Below are positions 199 through 37,930 of a DNA stretch of 37,930 nucleotides, piece by piece. Made by a program: the position numbers and the translations under genes. The notes beneath the pieces were generated by a model. The model was not told the DNA's origin and did not search any database. It was given only the letters and a program-made list of their open reading frames with translations. Positions within the stretch are counted from its first letter, which is position 1. Every line of letters starts with the position of its first letter. The DNA lies in contig JACQAL010000028.1 in the NCBI GenBank assembly GCA_016195025.1, positions 1 to 37,930 on the forward strand, written 5' to 3'. The DNA is from Bacteroidota bacterium (lineage in GTDB: Bacteria > Bacteroidota > Bacteroidia > Palsa-948).

Positions 199-1542
199 AT
201 GAAAAAAATCTACCTCTTCTTTTTATTTTCTTCCTGCATGCTTGCGGGAAAACTATTTTCACAAAACAATAACGTGGGCATCGGCACGCTCACGCCAAAT
301 TCCACTGCCATTCTTGATTTAAGCCCTCCGGGAAATGATAAAGGGCTTCTCGTTCCGCGCTTAACCACTGCGCAGCGCACCGCCATTCCTTCTCCCGCAA
401 ACGGATTGCTCGTGTATGATACCAACTTCAATTGTCTTTTTTATTTTTCTTCCACTGCGGGGTGGCTTTCTCTCTGCCAACTTTCAGGACCTACCGGTGC
501 AACAGGCGCGCAGGGAGCTGCGGGCGCAACAGGAGCGGCAGGAGCAAACGGACCAACGGGACCAACAGGCGCAACCGGAGTGAATGGAGCAACAGGAATT
601 GCAGGGGTTACAGGAGCAACTGGCGCAACTGGCGCGCAAGGCAATACAGGTCCCGGAGGTTATTGCGCAAATGCAATGGCAGGATTCATTACCCTGTTCA
701 CTTCGCCCACTGCAGTTTGCAACTCGGTTATGTTTCAGGATGCAAATAATAAAATCGGTGTGCAAACAACAACGCCTGCGGTTTCATTTCACATCAACAC
801 CACCGATGCCATTGCCATTCCCACCGGAACCACTGCGCAGCAGCCGCCCGCTCCTCCCGCGGGTTCCATTCGCTTCAACACAACACTGGGAGTGCTCGAA
901 GTTTTCAATGGCACCTGCTGGCAAAATGCCGATACGCCTCCTATTGGCGCAACCTATCTTCAATGGTTTAGCGCCTCTGACCCGAACACGCTTTATCCCT
1001 GCACCATCTGGATTTCATCCGACATTGCAAACGGAGAATTCCTCCGCGCCACAGGAGGATTATCAAATGTTGCAGCGCCTCCGCTCACCGGAGTTGTTCA
1101 GCAATGGGCAACGGAAGACCACACGCATTTTTCTTCCGGCTCCATAGGCGCTGACCCGGGCATGACCACTTCCACCGATGGCTCGCATAGTCATGGCGGC
1201 TCCACAACGGGAGTGAATTCCTTCAACGGCTCAACCTGGATTCCCTATGACGATAACTTAAGCAGCGATGCCGGAAATTCAGGGGACTTCTCCGGAAATA
1301 ATCCTTCTACTTGCGGAGTTGGCTGGGATGGAAGACCGACTGCAGGAAATTTCATGGGGCAGCAGAACCAAAGTTGCCTCGACCATACGCATGTAATCAA
1401 TCCGGATGGTTTGCATTTTCATACCACTCCGCCACACACGCACACGCTCACTCTTTCTGTAGGTTTGATGAGCAGCGGAAACATTGCAACGGAAACCCGC
1501 CCGACTAATGTAGCAGTTACTTTCTGGAGGCGCACTCAATGA
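199..1542 (+). CDS. Secreted collagen-like protein with HxH-rich, tail-fibre-like C-terminus
   Basis: A 447-residue exported protein. The ATG at 199 is preferred over an upstream TTG at 175 because it begins a clean signal peptide ([13 protein letters not shown]...LFSQ) and lies just after a -7 box. The mature start ([13 protein letters not shown], then [13 protein letters not shown]) is the pattern of Bacteroidota surface fibre proteins. Residues about 97-152 are collagen-like Gly-X-Y triplets ([10 protein letters not shown]). The C-terminal third carries five His-X-His motifs (H308/310, H330/332, H396/398, H406/408, H413/415) and ends [16 protein letters not shown], resembling the ETRPxNxA ending of phage tail-collar and Mdp-type proteins. 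It is probably a trimeric surface fibre; the ligand is unknown. The stop overlaps the next start by 4 bp, so the two are likely co-translated. Confidence 0.85.
487..660 (+). repeat. Collagen-like Gly-X-Y coding repeat
   Basis: Imperfect 9-nt periodicity (GGN-NCN-ACN codons) encodes about 19 Gly-X-Y triplets, mainly GAT, GAA, GPT and GAN. The repeat keeps other frames and the reverse strand open, which explains the shadow reading frames here. Confidence 0.85.
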
Positions 1543-2855
1543 AAAAGAGGTTTATAGTTTACGGTCTTCAGTTTACGGTTTTCTGTATTTCATTTCTCTT
1601 TTCCCTAACCGGAAACTGGAAACTGAAGACCGGAAACTGTTTTGCACAAATCACTTTTCTTAACACCGGCATTGACATAACTGTTTCTTCCAACTGCACC
1701 ACGTTTGTAGACGGTCATGTAATAGATTCGCTCGGTAAAATTCACAACAGCGGAAATATTTTTCTCACAGGCGATTGGTCGAACTTTGAACCTTCGGGAT
1801 GTTTAGACCCCGCAGCCGGAACAGTGATTCTCTCCGGAGGAAATCAATTCATCAAAGGAAATCAAACAACCACCTTCAATAATTTAGATTGCGCGGGAAG
1901 CGGAACAAAAACGCTGATCATAAATACAATCGTTGGAGGAAACACCGGAGTTCTATCGCTGAATGGAAATCCATTTGATTTAAATTCAAATACGCTAATT
2001 GTTACCAATCCTTCTTCTTCTGCCATTACGCGCAGCAGCGGCTACATCATTTCCGAAACACCGCCTGCAAACGGCTATGGAACCATTCAATGGAATCTCG
2101 GAAACGCGGCAGGCAATTATGAATTTCCTTTCGGAACTTTTTCGGCAGAATATATTCCGTTTCATTTCAACATTTCTTCGGCAGGAAATGCAGCGAACGG
2201 AAATATTTCTGTGGCAACTTATCCCACTGCTGCCGGAAATAATCCCAACAACCGCCCGCTGCCAACGGGAGTTGCAAATTTAGATGACCCGCAAAAAGGA
2301 AAAGATGTTTCGGAAAAATGTGCCGACCGCTTCTGGCTCATTGATGCGAACAATTATTCATCGAACCCCACTGCCGATATGATTTTTACTTACCGCGATT
2401 TGGAATGGGACGGTTCGAACGGAAGCACGAATAATATTTTAGAAGATAGTTTGCGCGCGTGGCGATGGGATGGAACAAAATGGCTGCCGCCTTCGGGAAC
2501 GGATAATCCTTCCGCCAACACGGTTACCATCACCGGCATAAATACTTTTTCTCCGTGGACGCTTTACTCGCGCGAGTTTCCCTGCCCTCTCTATGTACCC
2601 AATGCTTTTTCTCCGAATGGCGACAGCGAAAATGATTCGTGGAAACCCATCAGCGCCTGCCTGAAAAAAGTTCATTTCGAAATTTATAACCGCTGGGGTG
2701 AAAGAGTTTTTGAAACCGATGATGTGAAAAAAAGCTGGGACGGAACTTTTCATGGCGAAACGGAAGGCACAGCCGTGTTTACCTACATTATGACGTATGA
2801 ATTATATTCGGGTGATGCGGGCTCACGGAAAGGAAATATTTCTTTGATGCACTAA
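1539..2855 (+). CDS. T9SS type-B cargo protein (gliding-motility C-terminal domain)
   Basis: A 438-residue secreted protein. The ATG at 1539 overlaps the previous stop (ATGA), indicating translational coupling. An unusually long signal peptide, about 37 residues ending CFAQ, precedes a beta-rich region of unknown fold with Gly/Asn-rich segments (residues about 60-330). The last 90 residues are a typical gliding motility-associated C-terminal (CHU_C) domain: [16 protein letters not shown], then [13 protein letters not shown] and SWDG. In this family the domain directs export by the type IX secretion system and cell-surface attachment. The signal-peptide codons consist largely of an inverted repeat (1556-1638). 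The passenger function is unknown; surface location is well supported. Confidence 0.88.
1556..1638. repeat. 19-bp inverted repeat inside signal-peptide codons
   Basis: The arm at 1556-1574 (AGTTTACGGTCTTCAGTTT) is complementary to 1620-1638 with one mismatch, and the decamer AGTTTACGGT occurs twice in direct orientation (1556-1565, 1570-1579). The pair encloses the hydrophobic core of the signal peptide and starts 14 nt after the start codon. It resembles dispersed intergenic repeats rather than ordinary coding sequence. Confidence 0.75.
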
Positions 2856-19047: not shown

Positions 19048-19986
19048 ATGTCCGAATCACAAAATTCACCTGAGCGAAAAGAAAAAAAGAAAAGCGAATG
19101 GCTTTATCTCATTCTGCTTTTGTTTTTGCTCTGCTCGAACGGAGCGTTCGGCTGGTTATGGTGGAAGGATAAGGGAAGATTGCAAATCATCACTGTGGAA
19201 AAAGAAAATGTGGAGAAAGATGCGGAGATTGTGAAACAGGAACTCATCGCGCTGAAAGCCGAATATGAAAATCTGAAAGTGGACAACAAGACCATGCAGG
19301 CAAATATTGAAGAGAAGAAAAAAGAAATTGAGGAACTTCAAAAAATTGCCGCGAAGCATAAAGACGATGCGTACATCATAGCGAAACTGAAACGCGAAAC
19401 GCAAACGCTCCGCGACATCATGCAGCATTTTGTGCACGAGATTGATTCGCTGCATACATTAAATAATAATGTGATTGCCGAACGCGAAACGGTGAAGAAA
19501 GAATTGAAAACGGAAAAAGAAAAAACCACTCAACTTACAAAAGAAAAAGATGATTTGCAGAACACGGTGAACATTGCGAGCATGTTAAAAGCGGTGGATT
19601 TGACTGTAGAAGGAATCACGGAAAAGAAAGGAGGAAAAAAAGAAGTGGAAACTAAAAAAGCAAAACGCACCGACAAAATAAAAATAAAACTTACGCTGGC
19701 AGAAAATCCTGTAGCGAAAAAAGGCGAGCACATAGTTTATGCGCGCATTGTTACGCCCGATGGAAAAGAACTCACGCAGTCGGATGATTCAACGCATATT
19801 TTTTCTTTCGGAAAATCGAAGGGCTATTGGGCAACGAAAAAAAACGTGAACTATGAAAATGAAAACACCGAAGTCATCATGTATGCGCACGCGAAGCAAG
19901 GAGATAAATTCATTAATGGAAAATATATTGTCGAAGTAAACGCGGATGGCAACACCATCGGAAGTACAACACTTGAACTGGAATGA
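19048..19986 (+). CDS. Single-pass membrane coiled-coil protein, paralogue 1
   Basis: 312 residues. A basic cytoplasmic N-terminus is followed by one transmembrane helix (about 16-39, EWLYLILLLFLLCSNGAFGW), a long coiled coil (about 47-185) including TLRDIMQHFVHEIDSLHTLN, and a C-terminal beta-type domain (about 215-312, IVYARIVTPDGKELT...GKYIVEVNADGNTIGSTTLELE). The C-terminal half is predicted outside the inner membrane. It is a clear paralogue of the product at 22287, sharing membrane anchor, coiled coil and C-domain. Its stop overlaps the WG-repeat gene start (ATGA). The sequence suggests a structural or scaffold protein of the periplasm; I do not recognise a named family. A TAACTTCG box at 19020-19027 is a weak -7 candidate. 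Confidence 0.85.
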   Translation: MSESQNSPERKEKKKSEWLYLILLLFLLCSNGAFGWLWWKDKGRLQIITVEKENVEKDAEIVKQELIALKAEYENLKVDNKTMQANIEEKKKEIEELQKIAAKHKDDAYIIAKLKRETQTLRDIMQHFVHEIDSLHTLNNNVIAERETVKKELKTEKEKTTQLTKEKDDLQNTVNIASMLKAVDLTVEGITEKKGGKKEVETKKAKRTDKIKIKLTLAENPVAKKGEHIVYARIVTPDGKELTQSDDSTHIFSFGKSKGYWATKKNVNYENENTEVIMYAHAKQGDKFINGKYIVEVNADGNTIGSTTLELE

Positions 19987-26238: not shown

Positions 26239-29200
26239 ATGAAAATACTTTTTCATTCATTTCTTACTGCTTTTATTTTTTCGGCAAGAAAAATATTTTT
26301 TCTTTCCCTGCTTGTCATCCTGAGCGAAGTTGAAGGGTTGTTTGCCCAGCCCGATACGTGGATGAAAAAGGCGGATATGATAACCATTGGCGCTGCTCCC
26401 CGCAACCGCGCAGCAGGAATGGCTATTAACGGAAAAGGATATATTGGAACAGGGTGGAATGGCTCAACTTATTTTACAGGATGGTGGCAATACGACCCTG
26501 TAAAAGATTCCTGGGCTGTGGATACGGCTTTTACCGGCAACGCCAGAAACAGAACGCAATATTTTTCTTTAAACGGAAAAGGATATGTGATAATGGGTCA
26601 GGATGGTAGTTCTCTTTTTACAGGAACCTATGAATTTGATGCGGCACTTCATTCATGGAAAACAGTAAATTCTTTTTCTCCCAAGAGATATTCCGGTGTG
26701 GGATTTACTGTCGGAAATTATGGTTATGTATGCACCGGTTTCGACTTTGGTAATGTTTACTACAATGACCTCTGGCAATACGACCAAGCCACAGATTCGT
26801 GGTCACAGAAAGCATCTCTTCCCGGCTTGGCAAGATATTCTGCCGTTGTATTTTCAATCGGCAATTATGGTTATGTGGGAACAGGATGGAGTTCTTTGAA
26901 TTTTGCTTTGAATGATTTCTGGCAATACAACCCGCTTACAAATACCTGGTCGCAAAAGGCAAATGTTCCCGGTCCCGCACGGGTAATGGCTTCCGGGTTT
27001 TCCATCGGGAATAAAGGATATATGGGATTGGGTTATAAAGGGAGCGGCTTCAGCAATAACACCTACAGCGATTTTTACGAATACAACCCGATTAACGATA
27101 CGTGGGTGCCGCGCGCAAACTTTGTTGGCGGGCAGCGATGCGGAGCCGTTGCTTTTACTATTAACGGGGAAGGATATATCGGAACCGGCTCGGTGGGATA
27201 TGACAGCGCATTTGTAAGCGACCTTTGGAAATACACCCCCGCCAACATTCCCGTTACCACTTTTCAAAAAACTTACGGGGGCACCAGCGATGATGCCGAC
27301 TCGCTGAAAATGCCTTCGGGAAGGCAGACAGCCGATGGAGGATATGTGATTGTTTCTTCCTCGAAAAGTTTTACTTCCACTTCTGATTTGTATGTTGTAA
27401 AAACCGATAACATTGGCAATATACAATGGAGCAACCGATATGGAAATACAATAGGAGATGATTTTGGATACGATATAACGCAAACCACCGATGGAGGATA
27501 TATTCTCAGCGGACAGTATAAGCCCTTTCTTTCTCCTGCCGCCTATCTTATTAAACTGAATTCATCCGGAGGAATAACCTGGAGCCACGCGCAGGGAACC
27601 GCGCTTGCCTATGCCGCCAATGTGATTGACCAGAATGTGGATGGCACCTATATTGCTGCGGGCGCAAGAGGAGGCGGAATCAATAAAGATGTTCTGCTGA
27701 GCAAATTTGACGGCTCGGGCAATTTGCAGTGGAGCAAACAATACGGCTCCACGCTTTCCGATAACGAAGCATTTTCCATTCAGCGCATGTCCAGTGGAAA
27801 TTATATTGTGAGCGGGCATACCAACCAGGCAGGCAACTACGATGCTTTCTTTATCATTGCCGACCCCAACACAGGCATCGGCACATCGCTTGTTTTTCCT
27901 TCCGCCAATAACGATTACCATGCCTGGGCGGATGAAACCCAGGACGGAAATATTATTATTGCCGGCTCCACGCAGGTTGCCGCAAACGGGCTGGATGTGT
28001 TTGTGCTGAAATGCAGCACGAACGGGAACATCACCGGCTTTTGGTCAAACACCTACGGGGGAAGCAAAGCCGATGTGGCGCGCTCTGTTATTCCTACCTA
28101 CGATGGCGGCTATGCTGTTGCCGGCTTTACCAAAAGTTTCGGCTTTGGCGATAACGATGCCTTCCTGCTGAAATTAAATTCTGCAGGGCAGAAACAATGG
28201 CTTAAAACGTATGGCGGCACGGGCGATGACCGCGCCAACAATGTAATTGAAACAGGTGATGGAGGATTTGCCATCTTCGGCTATACGAGAAGTTTCGGCA
28301 AAGGCGGTTCGGATATATGGTTCATCAAAACAGATAGTTTGGGAAACGCGGGCTGCAGCCAGCAATCCCCTTCTCCCTCAACAAATAGTTTTGTTGTATC
28401 TGCTTCCGGTTCGCTTACGGCATCAAGTATAACAAATACCATTACGCCCACAACAACTACAAATACCGTATCCACCACCTCCATCAAGCAATGCATCAAC
28501 TGCACCTTTCCGATTACCCTCAGCCAAACCGACAATAAATGTTTTGGCTATTGCAACGGCACAGCAACGGTAATTAATGCGAGCGGTGCGCCTCCGTTTA
28601 CGTATGTCTGGAGCAACGCAGCCACCACTTCGGCAATCTCCAACCTCTGTGCAGGAAATTACATTGCCACCGTTACCGATGCCAACGGCTGCGTTGCCGT
28701 TGACTCGGTAAAAATTCTTGAGCCCCCGCAACTGCTTATAAATAATCTGCCGGATACAATTAATATTTGCAAAGGAGATACTGCTTTTATAAACGAAAGC
28801 ATTTCGGGCGGAGTTCCGCCTTATACTTTCAGTTGGTCGCCTTCCTTGGCGCTAAGTTGCACGGCTTGTCCAACGCCCGCTGCCAATCCTGCTTCCACAC
28901 AAAGTTATGTCCTGACTGTAACCGACAGTAATTCCTGCGGGGCGAAAGATACAGTAGTGGTGGCGGTGCATAGCGTTTCAGTAACTACTACCGGAAATAA
29001 AATTATCTGCGCGGGAAAAAGCGCAACGCTGGGCGCAAGTGGCGCGTCAAACTATGTCTGGTCGCCTGCAACAGGATTAAGCAATCCGAACATTTCAAAT
29101 CCTGTTGCCAACCCTTCGGCAACTACCACTTATACGGTAACCGGCACGGATGCAATTGGCTGTACGGGAACAAACACGGTGAGTGTAACAGTGCTTTCAA

Positions 29201-32578: not shown

Positions 32579-35500
32579 ATGAAAAAATATGTATCCTCCC
32601 TTTTACTTTTTACTTTTTACTTTTTACTTTTTACTTGTGCCTTCGCGCAGGCGCCCCAGGGAATCAACTACCAGGCGGTGGCGCGCGATGTGAATGGAAA
32701 TCCAATAGCCACGCAAACAATTTCCATTGAATTCAAAATTCATCAAACTACTTCGGGCGGAACAGTGGTGTATGATGAAACCCAAAGCAAAACCACGAAC
32801 CAGTTCGGTTTGTTCACAGCAGTTATCGGACAAGGAAGTTGTATTGTTTGTCCTTTTTCGGCAATCGCATGGGGAAGCGATATTTATTTTCTCGAAGTAT
32901 TTGTAAATGGAAACAACATGGGGAATTCCCAATTCATGTCCGTTCCTTATGCGCTTAACTCTCTTAATCCAGGTCCTGCTGGCGCTACCGGTCCGACTGG
33001 CGCAGCAGGTTCGAACGGAAGCAACGGAACAACCGGTCCGACTGGCGCAGCAGGTTCGAACGGCACAAATGGAGTAACCGGTGCAACAGGCGCAGCAGGA
33101 ACTAACGGTACAAATGGAGTAACAGGTGCAACAGGCGCAGCAGGAACTAACGGAAGTAACGGAGCAACCGGTCCAACAGGTGCAGCAGGAACAAACGGCA
33201 CAAATGGTGTCACGGGCGCAACAGGTGCAGCAGGAACTAACGGTAGCAACGGAGTAACAGGTGCAACAGGCGCAGCAGGAACTAACGGCACAAATGGAGT
33301 AACAGGCGCAACAGGCGCAGCAGGAACTAACGGCACAAATGGAGTAACAGGCGCGACTGGCGCAGCAGGAACTAACGGAAGTAACGGAGCAACCGGTCCA
33401 ACAGGTGCAGCAGGAACAAACGGCACAAATGGTGTCACGGGCGCAACAGGCGCAGCAGGAACTAACGGCTCTAATGGAGTTACGGGAGCAACTGGCGCTG
33501 CGGGAACAAACGGTACAAATGGAGTAACAGGCGCAACAGGTGCAGCAGGATCAAACGGTACAAATGGTGTAACAGGTGCCACAGGCGCAGCAGGAACTAA
33601 CGGCACAAATGGAGTCACAGGCGCAACAGGCGCAGCAGGAACCAACGGCAGTAATGGAGTAACGGGCGCAACAGGCGCAGCAGGAACTAACGGCTCTAAT
33701 GGAGTTACGGGAGCAACTGGCGCTGCGGGAACAAACGGTACAAATGGAGTAACAGGCGCAACAGGTGCAGCAGGAACAAACGGTACAAATGGAGTCACGG
33801 GCGCAACAGGTGCCACAGGCGCAGCAGGAACAAACGGCTCTAACGGAGTAACGGGAGCAACTGGCGCAGCAGGAACAAACGGTACAAATGGTGTTACGGG
33901 TGCCACAGGCGCAGCAGGAACAAACGGTTCTAACGGAGTAACGGGAGCAACTGGCGCAGCAGGAACAAACGGTACAAATGGAGCAACCGGACCAACCGGG
34001 CTTTTACAAAACGGCACTTCCGCAGGACAAACTCCCTACTGGGATGGAACATCATGGATTATCAATACAAACATTTATAATAACGGAGGCAGCGTGGGAA
34101 TAGGAATTACTTCCGGGTTTAGCGGGTTGTTGCATGTAAAACAAACCACAGCCACTCAACATGCAGGTTATTTCGAAATTAACAATGCCTCGAACAGCAA
34201 TGCTGCCGTTTACGGAACAACCAACAGCACTGCCGGCAATGCAGGATATTTTTCCAACACCAATGCAAGCAACAGCGCTTCGGCTGTGTATATTTCGCAT
34301 ATCGGAAGCGGAATTGCATTGAATGTGGCGCATACAGGAAGCAATGCCGCTGTTTATTCCAGCGCTTCAGGAACAGGTGAAGCAGGACATTTTCAAATTT
34401 TCAATAATGCCAATTCATCTTCGGCATTAACGGCAATAACAAATGGAACCGGCAATGCAGGGCTGTTTTCTATAAACAATGCTACAAGCGCTGCTGATGC
34501 AATTTATTCAACCACTAATGGAACAGGCAGGGCAGGAGTTTTTTATATAAACAATGCAACAAGTAGCGCAGATGCTTTGTATTGTTATACTAACGGCAGT
34601 GGGAGGTCGGTTTATAGTTATAACACCGGAGGAGGTAATGCAGGACAATTTTCTATAAACAATGCTACAAGCACTGCTGATGCAATTTATGTAACTACCA
34701 ATGGAACCGGCAACGCGGGAAATTTTATAGGAAAACTTAAAACCGACAGCATCCGCATAACGGGCAATGCGCCCGCGGCAGGAAAAGTGCTGACGGCAAA
34801 AGATGCTCTCGGAAATGCGCAATGGCAAAACCCTTCCGGCTTGCCTTCGGGAACCGTTAACCAAACGCTGCGGCACGATGGCACCAACTGGGTGGCGAAT
34901 TCATTCTTATATAATACAGCAAGCGCCATTGGAATAGGAACTACCGCTCCGCAAAACGCACTTGATGTTGCAGGTGCCGCAGTGATAGGCGCAACGTATT
35001 CAGGCGCCAATATTGCTCCCACAAGCGGATTGCTTGTAGAAGGCAATGTGGGCATCGGAACAACCTCTCCGCTCACCAAACTTCATGTTGAGGGAAGTTC
35101 GGCAGACCTTTTCCTGAGATTATCTACCATTGTGGGAGGCGCAGGCAACCCATTACCCGGAATTGCTTTTGGAGACGCAAATTCAACCGGTGCGCAGGCA
35201 TCTATTACGACAATACGAGATGCAGCAAGCGGTGGAGCAGCCGATTTACCAACAGCCATTTTATTTAAAACCACCCCAGATGGCAGTTCAACTTCTGCCG
35301 AAAGAATGCGAATTGATAATGCCGGCAATGTGGGCATCGGAACATCCTCTCCAACTGAAAAATTAGATGTTAACGTAGGAAATATAAGAACAACAAATTC
35401 TTTAAGTACTTACTTAACCGCATACTCTACTGCCTCCAGTTCTCAATCCTATCTTGACCTTGTTGCGCAAAATGCTGTTCCTTCAAGCATTGAATGGAGA

Positions 35501-36151
35501 ATTATAAACAACGCAGCCCCCGGGCGGCTTGAGTTTTATCACGCAACTTCGGGCAATACGAGAATGGTAATTGACGCATCAGGCAATGTGGGCATTGGAA
35601 CAACTGCACCTGCTTACATGCTTCACATCCATAAGTCAGGCGGAATAAATCCCTATGCGCATTTTACAGATGCGTCTACCGGCACAACCACTACCGATGG
35701 CTTAATTGTTGGCACTAACGGAGCAGGTACATCTTACATCATTAATTATGAAACCGCCTACGACCTTCATATAGGAAATTCAACAGACAATAATCTTATC
35801 ACTGTAGCGGGGGGAGCTAATAATGTCGGCATCGGAACAACTGCGCCAGATACAAAACTGCAAGTAAATGGCGGAATAAGTTTACCAATTTCGGTTCCCG
35901 CCTCCAGTTTAACTCTGGACCAAACCAATTACACTGTTATACTGCAGGGCGCAGTAACCGCTACTCTTCCTGCAGCGGCAGCAACCAATACCGGGTGGAT
36001 TTATGTTATTGTGAACCAAACTGCCGCAGCAAAAACTCTGGGCGGTGCTTACAATTATATGAATATGGCTGGTGTCAGCACCAATAGTATCAATCCAAGT
36101 TCAAGCATTATGATTCAAAGCAACGGAGGAACTTGGTTTCAGATAAAGTAA
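32579..36151 (+). CDS. Long collagen-like surface fibre protein
   Basis: 1190 residues. A signal peptide ([20 protein letters not shown], then AFAQ) written in ACTTTTT repeats is followed by a conserved N-terminal module (about 25-130, [20 protein letters not shown]...[24 protein letters not shown]) shared with the 36656 product. Residues about 132-475 are an almost unbroken Gly-X-Y array of 15-residue units ([15 protein letters not shown]). Then come about six units of [21 protein letters not shown] type (about 520-720), VGIGTTxP tail-fibre-like repeats ([17 protein letters not shown]) and a C-terminal beta segment ending GGTWFQIK. It lacks a recognisable T9SS C-terminal domain. Probably a trimeric, very elongated exported fibre. 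Stops at 32691 and 32728 lie in the two other frames just after the repeat. Confidence 0.9.
32605..32632 (+). repeat. Heptanucleotide tandem repeat (ACTTTTT x4) in signal-peptide codons
   Basis: Four perfect ACTTTTT units at 32605-32611, 32612-32618, 32619-32625 and 32626-32632, preceded by TTTT and followed by a partial ACTT. They encode LFTFYFLLF, the hydrophobic core. Since seven is not a multiple of three, any single-unit change breaks the reading frame. Confidence 0.9.
32972..34008 (+). repeat. 45-bp collagen-coding tandem array
   Basis: About 22-23 units of 45 bp, encoding [15 protein letters not shown] and close variants ([15 protein letters not shown]). One unit near 33803-33821 has an extra 9 bp (GATGATGAAG). 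Units stay in frame when gained or lost, so the stalk length can vary without loss of the protein. Confidence 0.92.
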
Positions 36152-36184: not shown

Positions 36185-36643
36185 TTGAGCAAAAAACTGG
36201 CATATCAGATAAGGGAAGCGCACACAACGAGAAGAGGAGTGAACACAACGACAGAAGGAGTGAGTACAACGATAGGAGGAGTGAATACAACGCTCGAAGG
36301 AGTGAGTACAACGATAGGAGGAGTGAATACAACGCTCGAAGGAGTGAGTACAACGCTCGAAGGAGTGAACACAACGCTCGAAGGAGTGAGTACAACGCTC
36401 GAAGGAGTGAGTACAACGAGAGGAGAAGTGAGTACAACGCTCGAAGGAGTGAGTACAACGCTCGAAGGAGTGAGTACAACGAGAGGAGAAGTGAGTACAA
36501 CGCTCGAAGGAGTGAGTACAACGCTCGAAGGAGTGAGTACAACGCTCGAAGGAGTGAGTACAACGATAGAAGGAGTGAGTACAACGATAGAAGGAATGCA
36601 GACAATGACAGGAAGAACAATTGAAACTATAAAATTTGCTTAA
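36185..36643 (+). CDS. Possible heptad-repeat protein over the 21-bp array
   Basis: An open frame of 152 residues from TTG 36185 (no upstream ATG) to TAA 36641-36643. It consists of a short N-terminus (MSKKLAYQIREAHTT), 17 heptads of VSTTLEG/VNTTIGG type and a C-terminus (MQTMTGRTIETIKFA). If Leu/Ile is taken as position a and Val as position d, the 3-4 spacing fits a coiled coil, although Gly and Thr content would make it unusual. Coding status is doubtful: the 21-bp period keeps other frames open too, the start is not ATG, and no promoter or ribosome site is evident. It sits in the gap between two fibre genes, which would otherwise be about 500 bp without a gene. Confidence 0.3.
   Translation: MSKKLAYQIREAHTTRRGVNTTTEGVSTTIGGVNTTLEGVSTTIGGVNTTLEGVSTTLEGVNTTLEGVSTTLEGVSTTRGEVSTTLEGVSTTLEGVSTTRGEVSTTLEGVSTTLEGVSTTLEGVSTTIEGVSTTIEGMQTMTGRTIETIKFA
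36239..36595. repeat. 21-bp tandem array (17 units)
   Basis: Seventeen consecutive 21-bp units, majority form GTGAGTACAACGCTCGAAGG plus A, with variants at three places: AGT/AAT/AAC, CTCGAA/ATAGGA/ATAGAA/ACAGAA, and an AGAGGAGAA ending in two units. Degenerate half-units flank it on both sides. There are no spacers, so it is not CRISPR. The period equals two turns of B-DNA. Confidence 0.93.
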
Positions 36644-36655
36644 ATTAAGCGACAA

Positions 36656-37930
36656 ATGAATAAAATGATGAAAAAAACCACATACATAAGGAAGGGACAA
36701 GGGACGAGGGACAAGGGACGAGTTAAAAAATTAGTAATTTTCATTATACTTCTTACTTCTTACTTCTTACCTCTCACTTCTGCCTTCTCCCAATCCCCCA
36801 ACGGCATCAACTACCAGGCGGTGGCGCGTGATGTGAATGGAACTCCGCTTGCAACCCAGGCGGTTACTGTTGTTTTTAATATTCACATGGGCAGCGGCAG
36901 CGGTCCGGTTTCATGCAGCGAAACGCAAACGCTCACCACCAATCCGTTCGGGCTTTTCACCTGGGTAATCGGCTCTTCCAACCATCCCAACTTTGATACG
37001 ATTGCATGGGAAAATCATGCTTACTTCCTCGAAGTAATCGTGAACGGAAGTTCCATGGGCGCCACGCAGTTTGTTTCCGTTCCTTATTCATTGCACGCGC
37101 ACACGGCTGATTTGGCAGGAGCAGCAGTAAACGGATGGTCAACCCTCGGAAACGCAGGCACCATTCCTCCGGCAAATTTTATGGGCACAACAGATAACCA
37201 GCCGCTTTTCTTCCGCACAAATAATGTTTCAAAACTATTTCTCGATAATGACAGCGCGCACTTAGGCGTTTCGGGAACGGGAGCGCTGTTTGTGGTGCAG
37301 GAAACTCCGGTCAGCCAGGGCGCATCGCTCTTTCTGCAAAGCCATCATGCCTGGCAGCAGGTTTCAGATGCAGCCGGATTCTTTCGCATTAATGATGCAA
37401 CAGCAGGACAGCCCCGCATGAGCATTGACAGCATGGGCAGGGTGGGAATAGGAACAACTGCACCTACGAATTTATTACATGTAGTGAATACAACTACTCT
37501 TTCCGCTGCAGGACTATTTCAAATCAACAACGCATCCAACGCATCCAATGCTTTGTATGCTACTACCAACGGTACGAGTGCAGCTGGAAATTTTCAAATC
37601 AACAATGCAAGCAATTCTCAAGGTGCATTAATTGGTCAAACCAACGGTACGGGTTCTGCTCTTTATGGTTTAAGCACGGGTAACGGCAATGCAGGAAATT
37701 TTCAAATCAGCAATTCCTCAAACAATCAACCAGCTTTATATGTAACCACCAACGGCACTGGTGCTTCCGCGGTGTTTACGGGTGGCAATGTGGGCATCGG
37801 GATCACTGTTCCTAAAAATACCCTTTCGGTAGTGGGAAGTTTGGCATTGAAAAAAGTTTCTGTTAATGCCAGCACATATTCCATGAGTTCTTCAGATTGT
37901 TTTATTGAAGTTACAGGTGGTTCTTCCTCA
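36656..37930 (+). CDS. Surface fibre protein, paralogue of the 32579 product (3' partial)
   Basis: At least 425 residues, running off the window. ATG 36656 is the first in frame; ATGs at 36665 and 36668 are alternatives. The export signal is long: a basic n-region (RKGQGTRDKGRVKK) written in GGGACRA repeats and a hydrophobic core (LVIFIILLTSYFLPLTSAFS) written in ACTTCTT repeats. The mature start [22 protein letters not shown]...YFLEVIVNGSSMGATQFVSVPYSL matches the 32579 product. Instead of a collagen stalk it continues with GTTDNQPLFFRTNNVSKLFLD, then [15 protein letters not shown] and NNASNSQGALIGQTNGTG-type repeats. It is probably another exported trimeric fibre. Stops at 36829 and 36834 lie in the other two frames shortly after the repeats. 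Confidence 0.88.
   Translation, partial: MNKMMKKTTYIRKGQGTRDKGRVKKLVIFIILLTSYFLPLTSAFSQSPNGINYQAVARDVNGTPLATQAVTVVFNIHMGSGSGPVSCSETQTLTTNPFGLFTWVIGSSNHPNFDTIAWENHAYFLEVIVNGSSMGATQFVSVPYSLHAHTADLAGAAVNGWSTLGNAGTIPPANFMGTTDNQPLFFRTNNVSKLFLDNDSAHLGVSGTGALFVVQETPVSQGASLFLQSHHAWQQVSDAAGFFRINDATAGQPRMSIDSMGRVGIGTTAPTNLLHVVNTTTLSAAGLFQINNASNASNALYATTNGTSAAGNFQINNASNSQGALIGQTNGTGSALYGLSTGNGNAGNFQISNSSNNQPALYVTTNGTGASAVFTGGNVGIGITVPKNTLSVVGSLALKKVSVNASTYSMSSSDCFIEVTGGSSS
36694..36721 (+). repeat. GGGACAA/GGGACGA tandem heptamers (x4)
   Basis: Four exact 7-nt units alternating GGGACAA and GGGACGA, encoding the basic n-region of the following signal peptide. A one-unit change would shift the frame unless translation starts downstream. 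Confidence 0.85.
36748..36782 (+). repeat. ACTTCTT tandem heptamers in signal-peptide codons
   Basis: Three perfect ACTTCTT units (36748-36768) are followed by two variants (ACCTCTC, ACTTCTG), together 35 nt with 7-nt period, encoding the hydrophobic core and the region before the cleavage site. Confidence 0.85.

Follow-up and report, generated by a model that had tools for sequence, protein, structure and literature searches.

The leader-peptide coding region of the Neisseria opa genes contains CTCTT pentamer repeats, for which phase variation at a high rate has been proven (PMC3960869; PMC3899988). The Opa leader is a single-gene precedent for the one described here. In both, a tandem unit whose length is not a multiple of three lies within signal peptide (SP) coding DNA, and changes in unit number shift the reading frame. 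However, opa represents one gene family, one unit and proven switching, whereas in the genome studied here dozens of unrelated genes and about 50 units are involved. Unlike in opa, the arrays are found in the n-region as well as in the hydrophobic core, and the assemblies contain no clear OFF copies (one is doubtful).

Heptamer arrays are also known in bacteria. TAACTGA repeats are known from Beggiatoaceae, some Bacteroidetes and Cyanobacteria, and in Beggiatoaceae and a few Bacteroidetes arrays of this unit adjoin start codons (PMC4679880). GGGAATC repeats were found in Xanthomonas and Nostoc (PMC4692102), and both of these papers cite Mrazek (2007) for the over-representation of heptamers in bacteria. 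As with these dispersed repeats, the genome studied here shows a genome-wide excess of period 7, and some arrays lie directly 5' of start codons. Nevertheless, the earlier studies each concerned one unit at mainly intergenic sites, whereas the arrays described here have varying units and lie mainly in SP coding DNA. Tandem repeats of constant size and variable sequence, with periods of 20-21 and 52 nt, were described by Subirana and Messeguer (PMC8161180). The arrays reported here are similar in that the period is constant and the sequence differs at each locus, but both the period and the genomic location are different. In Rickettsia, palindromic elements (RPE) are found in frame within protein genes. 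Here too, repeat DNA is kept in frame inside genes at permissive sites; unlike RPE, the arrays have no common consensus element and only a minority have inverted arms. A search of the open literature found no description of heptamer-encoded SPs, or of arrays with constant period and varying unit concentrated in SPs genome-wide, and the genome-wide habit of array-encoded SPs seems to be undescribed. What is added to the known heptamer arrays is their concentration in SPs, with unrelated units, also in two sister species.

The window analysed is a whole contig (C28) of 37,930 nt, from the genome of an uncultured bacterium, of 3.5 Mb and 41% GC and assembled in 79 contigs. Export features of the gliding and Q-rule types suggest that the bacterium belongs to the Bacteroidota. 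Its last gene encodes a fibre-like protein whose leader contains two heptamer tracts (Table 1). Both tracts lie within one ORF that runs from the first ATG to the contig end, and an in-frame stop is found upstream of this ATG at 36641. Re-examination of the sequence showed that the initial annotation was correct in the tracts, their frame and their coordinates. The two tracts encode the n-region and the core of an export signal, the 7-nt unit is frame-breaking as it is not a multiple of three, and stops in the other two frames are found downstream of the tracts at 36829 and 36834. The gene was also rightly described as a second fibre paralogue, with 50% identity over about 156 aa to the first. 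Residues 1-45 of its product are MNKMMKKTTYIRKGQGTRDKGRVKKLVIFIILLTSYFLPLTSAFS. Judged by sequence, the leader MNKMMKKTTYIRKGQGTRDKGRVKK-LVIFIILLTSYFLPLTSAFS, predicted to be cleaved before QSPN, has the basic n-region, hydrophobic core, small residue at -1 and Q at +1 of a Bacteroidetes-type Sec/SPI signal; the Q-rule for signal peptidase I sites in Bacteroidetes is known from previous work (PMC5837995). A low-confidence structure model has a helix at residues 19-37 and strands at 51-130, and a structure search with it found nothing beyond a weak Ig-like match (E 0.03) to adhesin domains.

Table 1. Features of the dual-tract leader, related genes of the window, and arrays upstream of start codons (positions are those of the window; loci outside it are given by name)
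Feature	Position	Strand	Remarks
Fibre-like secreted protein gene	36656..37930	+	425+ aa, truncated by contig end at 37930
Possible start codons	36656..36670	+	ATG 36656, 36665, 36668; all in frame, all 5' of both tracts
n-region heptamer tract	36692..36719	+	AAGGGAC/GAGGGAC x4 (= GGGACRA x4); encodes basic RKGQGTRDKGR
Spacer between tracts	36720..36746	+	Stops in both other frames: TAA 36724; TAG 36732, TAA 36735; without start codon
h-region heptamer tract	36747..36788	+	TACTTCT x3, TACCTCT, CACTTCT, GCCTTCT (TACTTCT-like x6); encodes LLTSYFLPLTSAF, hydrophobic core
Predicted signal peptidase I site	36782..36793	+	A-F-S, then Q; Q46 exposed, fits Bacteroidetes Q-rule; from sequence
Predicted signal peptide, then beta-sandwich domain			Signal peptide aa 1-45, domain aa ~50-130 of fibre-like protein; low-confidence model
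First fibre paralogue	32579..36151	+	1190 aa, collagen-like repeats
h-region heptamer tract of first fibre paralogue	32601..32636	+	TTTTACT x5; codes its SP core
Third window gene, leader of heptameric repeats	1539..1655	+	14-nt unit AGTTTACGGTCTTC x2 (1556-1583), AACTGGA x4.7 (1607-1639)
Stop-containing heptamer arrays before starts			Loci L103, L114, L116, L117, L130, L144

When the peptide was kept and its codons were drawn from the window's own usage, the score of the n-tract was reached in 3 of 20,000 synonymous recodings and that of the h-tract in none of 20,000. Since recoding almost never reproduces them, the two tracts are a feature of the DNA that does not simply follow from the peptide. 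The same result, together with the absence of periods 6 and 9, shows that the arrays do not stem from amino-acid or codon bias. A programmed -1 frameshift heptamer (X XXY YYZ) was also considered and rejected, as neither GGGACRA nor TACTTCT fits it and the frame is open anyway from the ATG to the contig end. Rfam gave no match.

The dual-tract gene is one of dozens of array-bearing leaders in this genome. A genome search with the units found in the window showed that in most loci tested a TTACTTY tract forms the hydrophobic core of an SP or lipoprotein leader. To avoid bias from the choice of motif, a sample was then made up of the initial 20 kb of each contig (1.365 Mb, 39% of the genome). 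Genes were called by a dicodon model instead of Prodigal, and SPs by a simple home-made rule instead of SignalP (basic n-region, core, and AxSQ-like or lipobox site). The sample contains 80 arrays of period 7, with 49 distinct units, and 25 of period 8, while each of the other periods from 4 to 13 has 0-2. A Markov-4 random-sequence control contained no period-7 array. Period-7 arrays are found in 33 of 262 SP+ leaders, or about one in eight, compared to 4 of 774 SP- N-termini and 5 of 917 internal coding windows (Fisher p~1e-16). Internal transmembrane helices are equally hydrophobic and contain arrays in 2 of 344 cases (p=6e-11 against the SP leaders), which rules out mere hydrophobicity as the cause of the excess.

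Array density is highest in SPs, at 114.6 per 100 kb, followed by the 40 nt that precede starts (28), the remaining intergenic DNA (6.0) and the remaining coding DNA (2.9). SPs thus exceed the remaining intergenic DNA 19-fold and the remaining coding DNA 40-fold, and the mainly intergenic location of the dispersed heptamer repeats is not found here. Mere tolerance of arrays would predict the highest density in intergenic DNA, which is not what was observed. The excess in SPs may be due to selection, slower decay or targeting. Two congeners, sampled over 400 kb each, gave 92.6 and 61.7 arrays per 100 kb in SPs, 17.6 and 5.5 in intergenic DNA, and 2.5 and 1.4 in coding DNA. The two-tract leader is itself a recurring type, as two arrays are also found in leaders L015 (and its orthologue L158 from genome G006), L101, L119, L140, and L272 from genome G001. 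As in the dual-tract gene, a purine-rich n-region array precedes a pyrimidine-rich core array in L015 (KSKVKSQ), L101 (KIQNSKF), L140 and L119 (both KPQVSSPK), and L272. Arrays that contain stops (TAATCAT, AACGATT and others) end from a few to about 30 nt 5' of the start codons of non-exported genes (Table 1).

The coding properties of a 7-nt unit are unusual. In tandem it has a coding cycle of 21 nt, and because 7 is not a multiple of three the same heptapeptide, only rotated, is read in all three frames. An array is therefore free of stops in all frames or in none, and 69% of all heptamers are stop-free as tandem arrays. It follows from this frame independence that an array with a pyrimidine-rich sense strand is always hydrophobic (TTACTTY reads LLLTSYF in any frame) and a purine-rich one always basic (KGQGTRD). 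The units are sorted accordingly, with a median hydropathy of +1.0 in SP zones versus -0.9 in other coding DNA (p=3e-6). Many intergenic units contain stops.

Comparison between species revealed that orthologues whose mature parts are 65-90% identical have unrelated leaders. Three species have an array in the SurA-like leader, ATTAGTC-like in one, CATCTGC/CATCTTA in the next and CCTTTTG-like in the last; three further species have little or no array there. In the adjoining gene, for a peptidyl-prolyl isomerase (PPIase), the array is CTGCCAA in one species and CATCTGC/TCTTACC in a second, and five species have no array. In a TPR-like gene all copies of the array are TTGTACT in one species and TTTTACT in another, and this uniformity within species combined with the difference between them suggests, from the sequences, homogenisation.

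The explanation that we favour, and hold to be fairly probable, is that a repeat-generating process with a 7-nt register repeatedly rewrites signal peptides and is filtered by peptide chemistry. The mutational process, presumably slippage or duplication, would make, homogenise and replace arrays, and selection would retain them where the peptide fits, that is, hydrophobic arrays in SP cores, basic ones in n-regions and hydrophilic ones in loops. In the dual-tract gene the arrays would then simply form a functional Sec signal peptide, whose translation begins at an ATG 5' of the two. A wider reading is plausible, although it falls somewhat short of being probable. Across the genus, secretion signals might be renewed by an array-forming process that overwrites SPs with new hydrophobic and basic arrays. 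In place of point mutation, the birth, homogenisation and replacement of arrays would then drive the evolution of leaders, and the export of dozens of proteins might be tuned or switched in this way.

Switching had been proposed for the dual-tract gene in the initial annotation, and as an alternative to the rewriting of SPs it is unlikely. The gene would be a contingency locus of the Opa kind, where slipped-strand changes in unit number turn the fibre on and off by frameshift, and dozens of exported proteins would have to be phase-variable at once. A unit not divisible by three that lies within SP coding DNA is what such a locus requires, the product is of a surface type, arrays turn over between species, and the opa leaders provide a precedent (PMC3960869; PMC3899988). 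Only net changes of three units per tract, with seven residues gained or lost, preserve the frame; other changes put the mature protein out of frame, towards the stops of the spacer or those at 36829 and 36834. Yet with random phase many leaders should be OFF, and array-bearing leaders are instead practically all in frame. When both strands of 2.2 Mb from three species were searched, 62 array-leader combinations were in frame and one was doubtfully OFF, in consensus assemblies where minority variants are invisible. Moreover, most tracts have only 4-5 units, many of them imperfect, and arrays are also carried by housekeeping exported proteins (SurA-like, PPIase, and GldD-like). Rapid switching is not supported by these data; slow or rare switching may occur.

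Two further suggestions, that changes in one tract are compensated in the other and that translation may start between them, did not hold. The spacer stops had been overlooked, and if the first tract gains or loses one or two units net, the reading frame runs into one of them (36724 or 36732/36735). Because translation ends there before the second tract is reached, the second tract cannot compensate the first. Alternative starts are excluded in that no ATG, GTG or TTG occurs in any frame from 36669 to 36799.

A less probable alternative is that the arrays arrive as blocks of repeats that are mobile or copied, some of them having inverted arms as palindromic elements do, and settle in leaders because leaders tolerate them. 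The near-identical leaders of two recent paralogues, L119:60-310 and L140:60-420 share an octamer array (TGTTCGAT), and one of them has an extra in-frame block of 120 nt made of inverted heptamer arrays (AAGTYCC/GGAATTT). The block speaks for an insertion, but the difference may just as well have arisen when DNA between short direct repeats (TTTTCTT) was deleted. Inverted partner arrays (at least 13/14 match) were observed four times versus 0.4 expected; most arrays, however, have no inverted partner, and a general inverted-repeat element is thereby ruled out. Units are common to congeners, as with GCCATCT x2.4, which six of the seven genomes of the genus contain when one mismatch is allowed and which has no exact match in the 147 other genomes of the phylum. 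Nevertheless, 49 unit types in 80 tracts fit a small number of mobile elements poorly. Very improbable is a 5'-proximal mRNA element, by which arrays near the start codon would regulate translation as proposed for the TAACTGA repeats upstream of start codons in Beggiatoaceae (PMC4679880): arrays are indeed enriched in the 40 nt upstream of starts over other intergenic DNA (p=0.002), but SP- N-termini at the same distance from the start are not enriched, the hydropathy of the encoded peptide predicts where arrays are located, and folding of the dual-tract leader is ordinary (z = -1.0), with no significant hairpin between purine and pyrimidine tracts.

In the collection compared, the order consists of this genus alone, with seven genomes, and the genus is known from assemblies only. 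Other families were compared with two motifs in 148 genomes. TTACTTY arrays were found in eight of these, among them one other genome with an SP array and one other genus of the class (G027, G031, G090) where they seem to lie between genes and no open frame crosses them. Since these arrays look intergenic, the SP array habit is not general in the phylum. No period-7 arrays were found in 155 kb of named loci, nearly all from Bacteroidota.

The concentration of arrays in SPs suggests a specific way in which repeat DNA gives rise to new export signals, and the dozens of loci offer a system for measuring array mutation, frame independence and secretion. For annotation, it is a warning that odd leaders such as QLPTANC, SAICHLP, and LLLTSYF are repeat-encoded.

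Arrays were also noted outside leaders. In-frame heptamer arrays lie inside apparently housekeeping enzymes (L137:7745-7776, L093:16822-16854 and 19799-19830, and L126:12774-12804), namely LipB and, as assigned by eye, aminotransferase-like, AroB-like and AroE-like proteins. The LipB array falls within a stretch of extra residues relative to solved LipB structures, and in AroE the array encodes an N-terminal extension that the G001 orthologue lacks. Further arrays lie towards the C terminus, in stretches that look like sorting domains of type IX secretion (PNPTSG ... IYNVMGEKVY; L105:5858 and 7585, L116:4849, L119:11473), where the enrichment over other coding DNA is weak (3 tracts, p=0.04).

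Just 5' of the dual-tract gene, a 21-nt (3 x 7) tandem array of 17 copies (36235-36595) encodes GVSTTLE repeats within a possible 152-aa ORF at 36185-36643. Period-21 arrays are a further genome-wide class, with 28 in the 1.37 Mb sample. Other apparently repeated strings occur in leaders (L041, L049, L213-L215, and L246, and at 26239 and 19983 of the window), and repeat-like leaders of this kind encode peptides such as PLLWGGTEGG, PSLWEGSG, ILSEVEG, and SPLEKG. Given these strings, repeat DNA may in general tend to collect in signal peptides.
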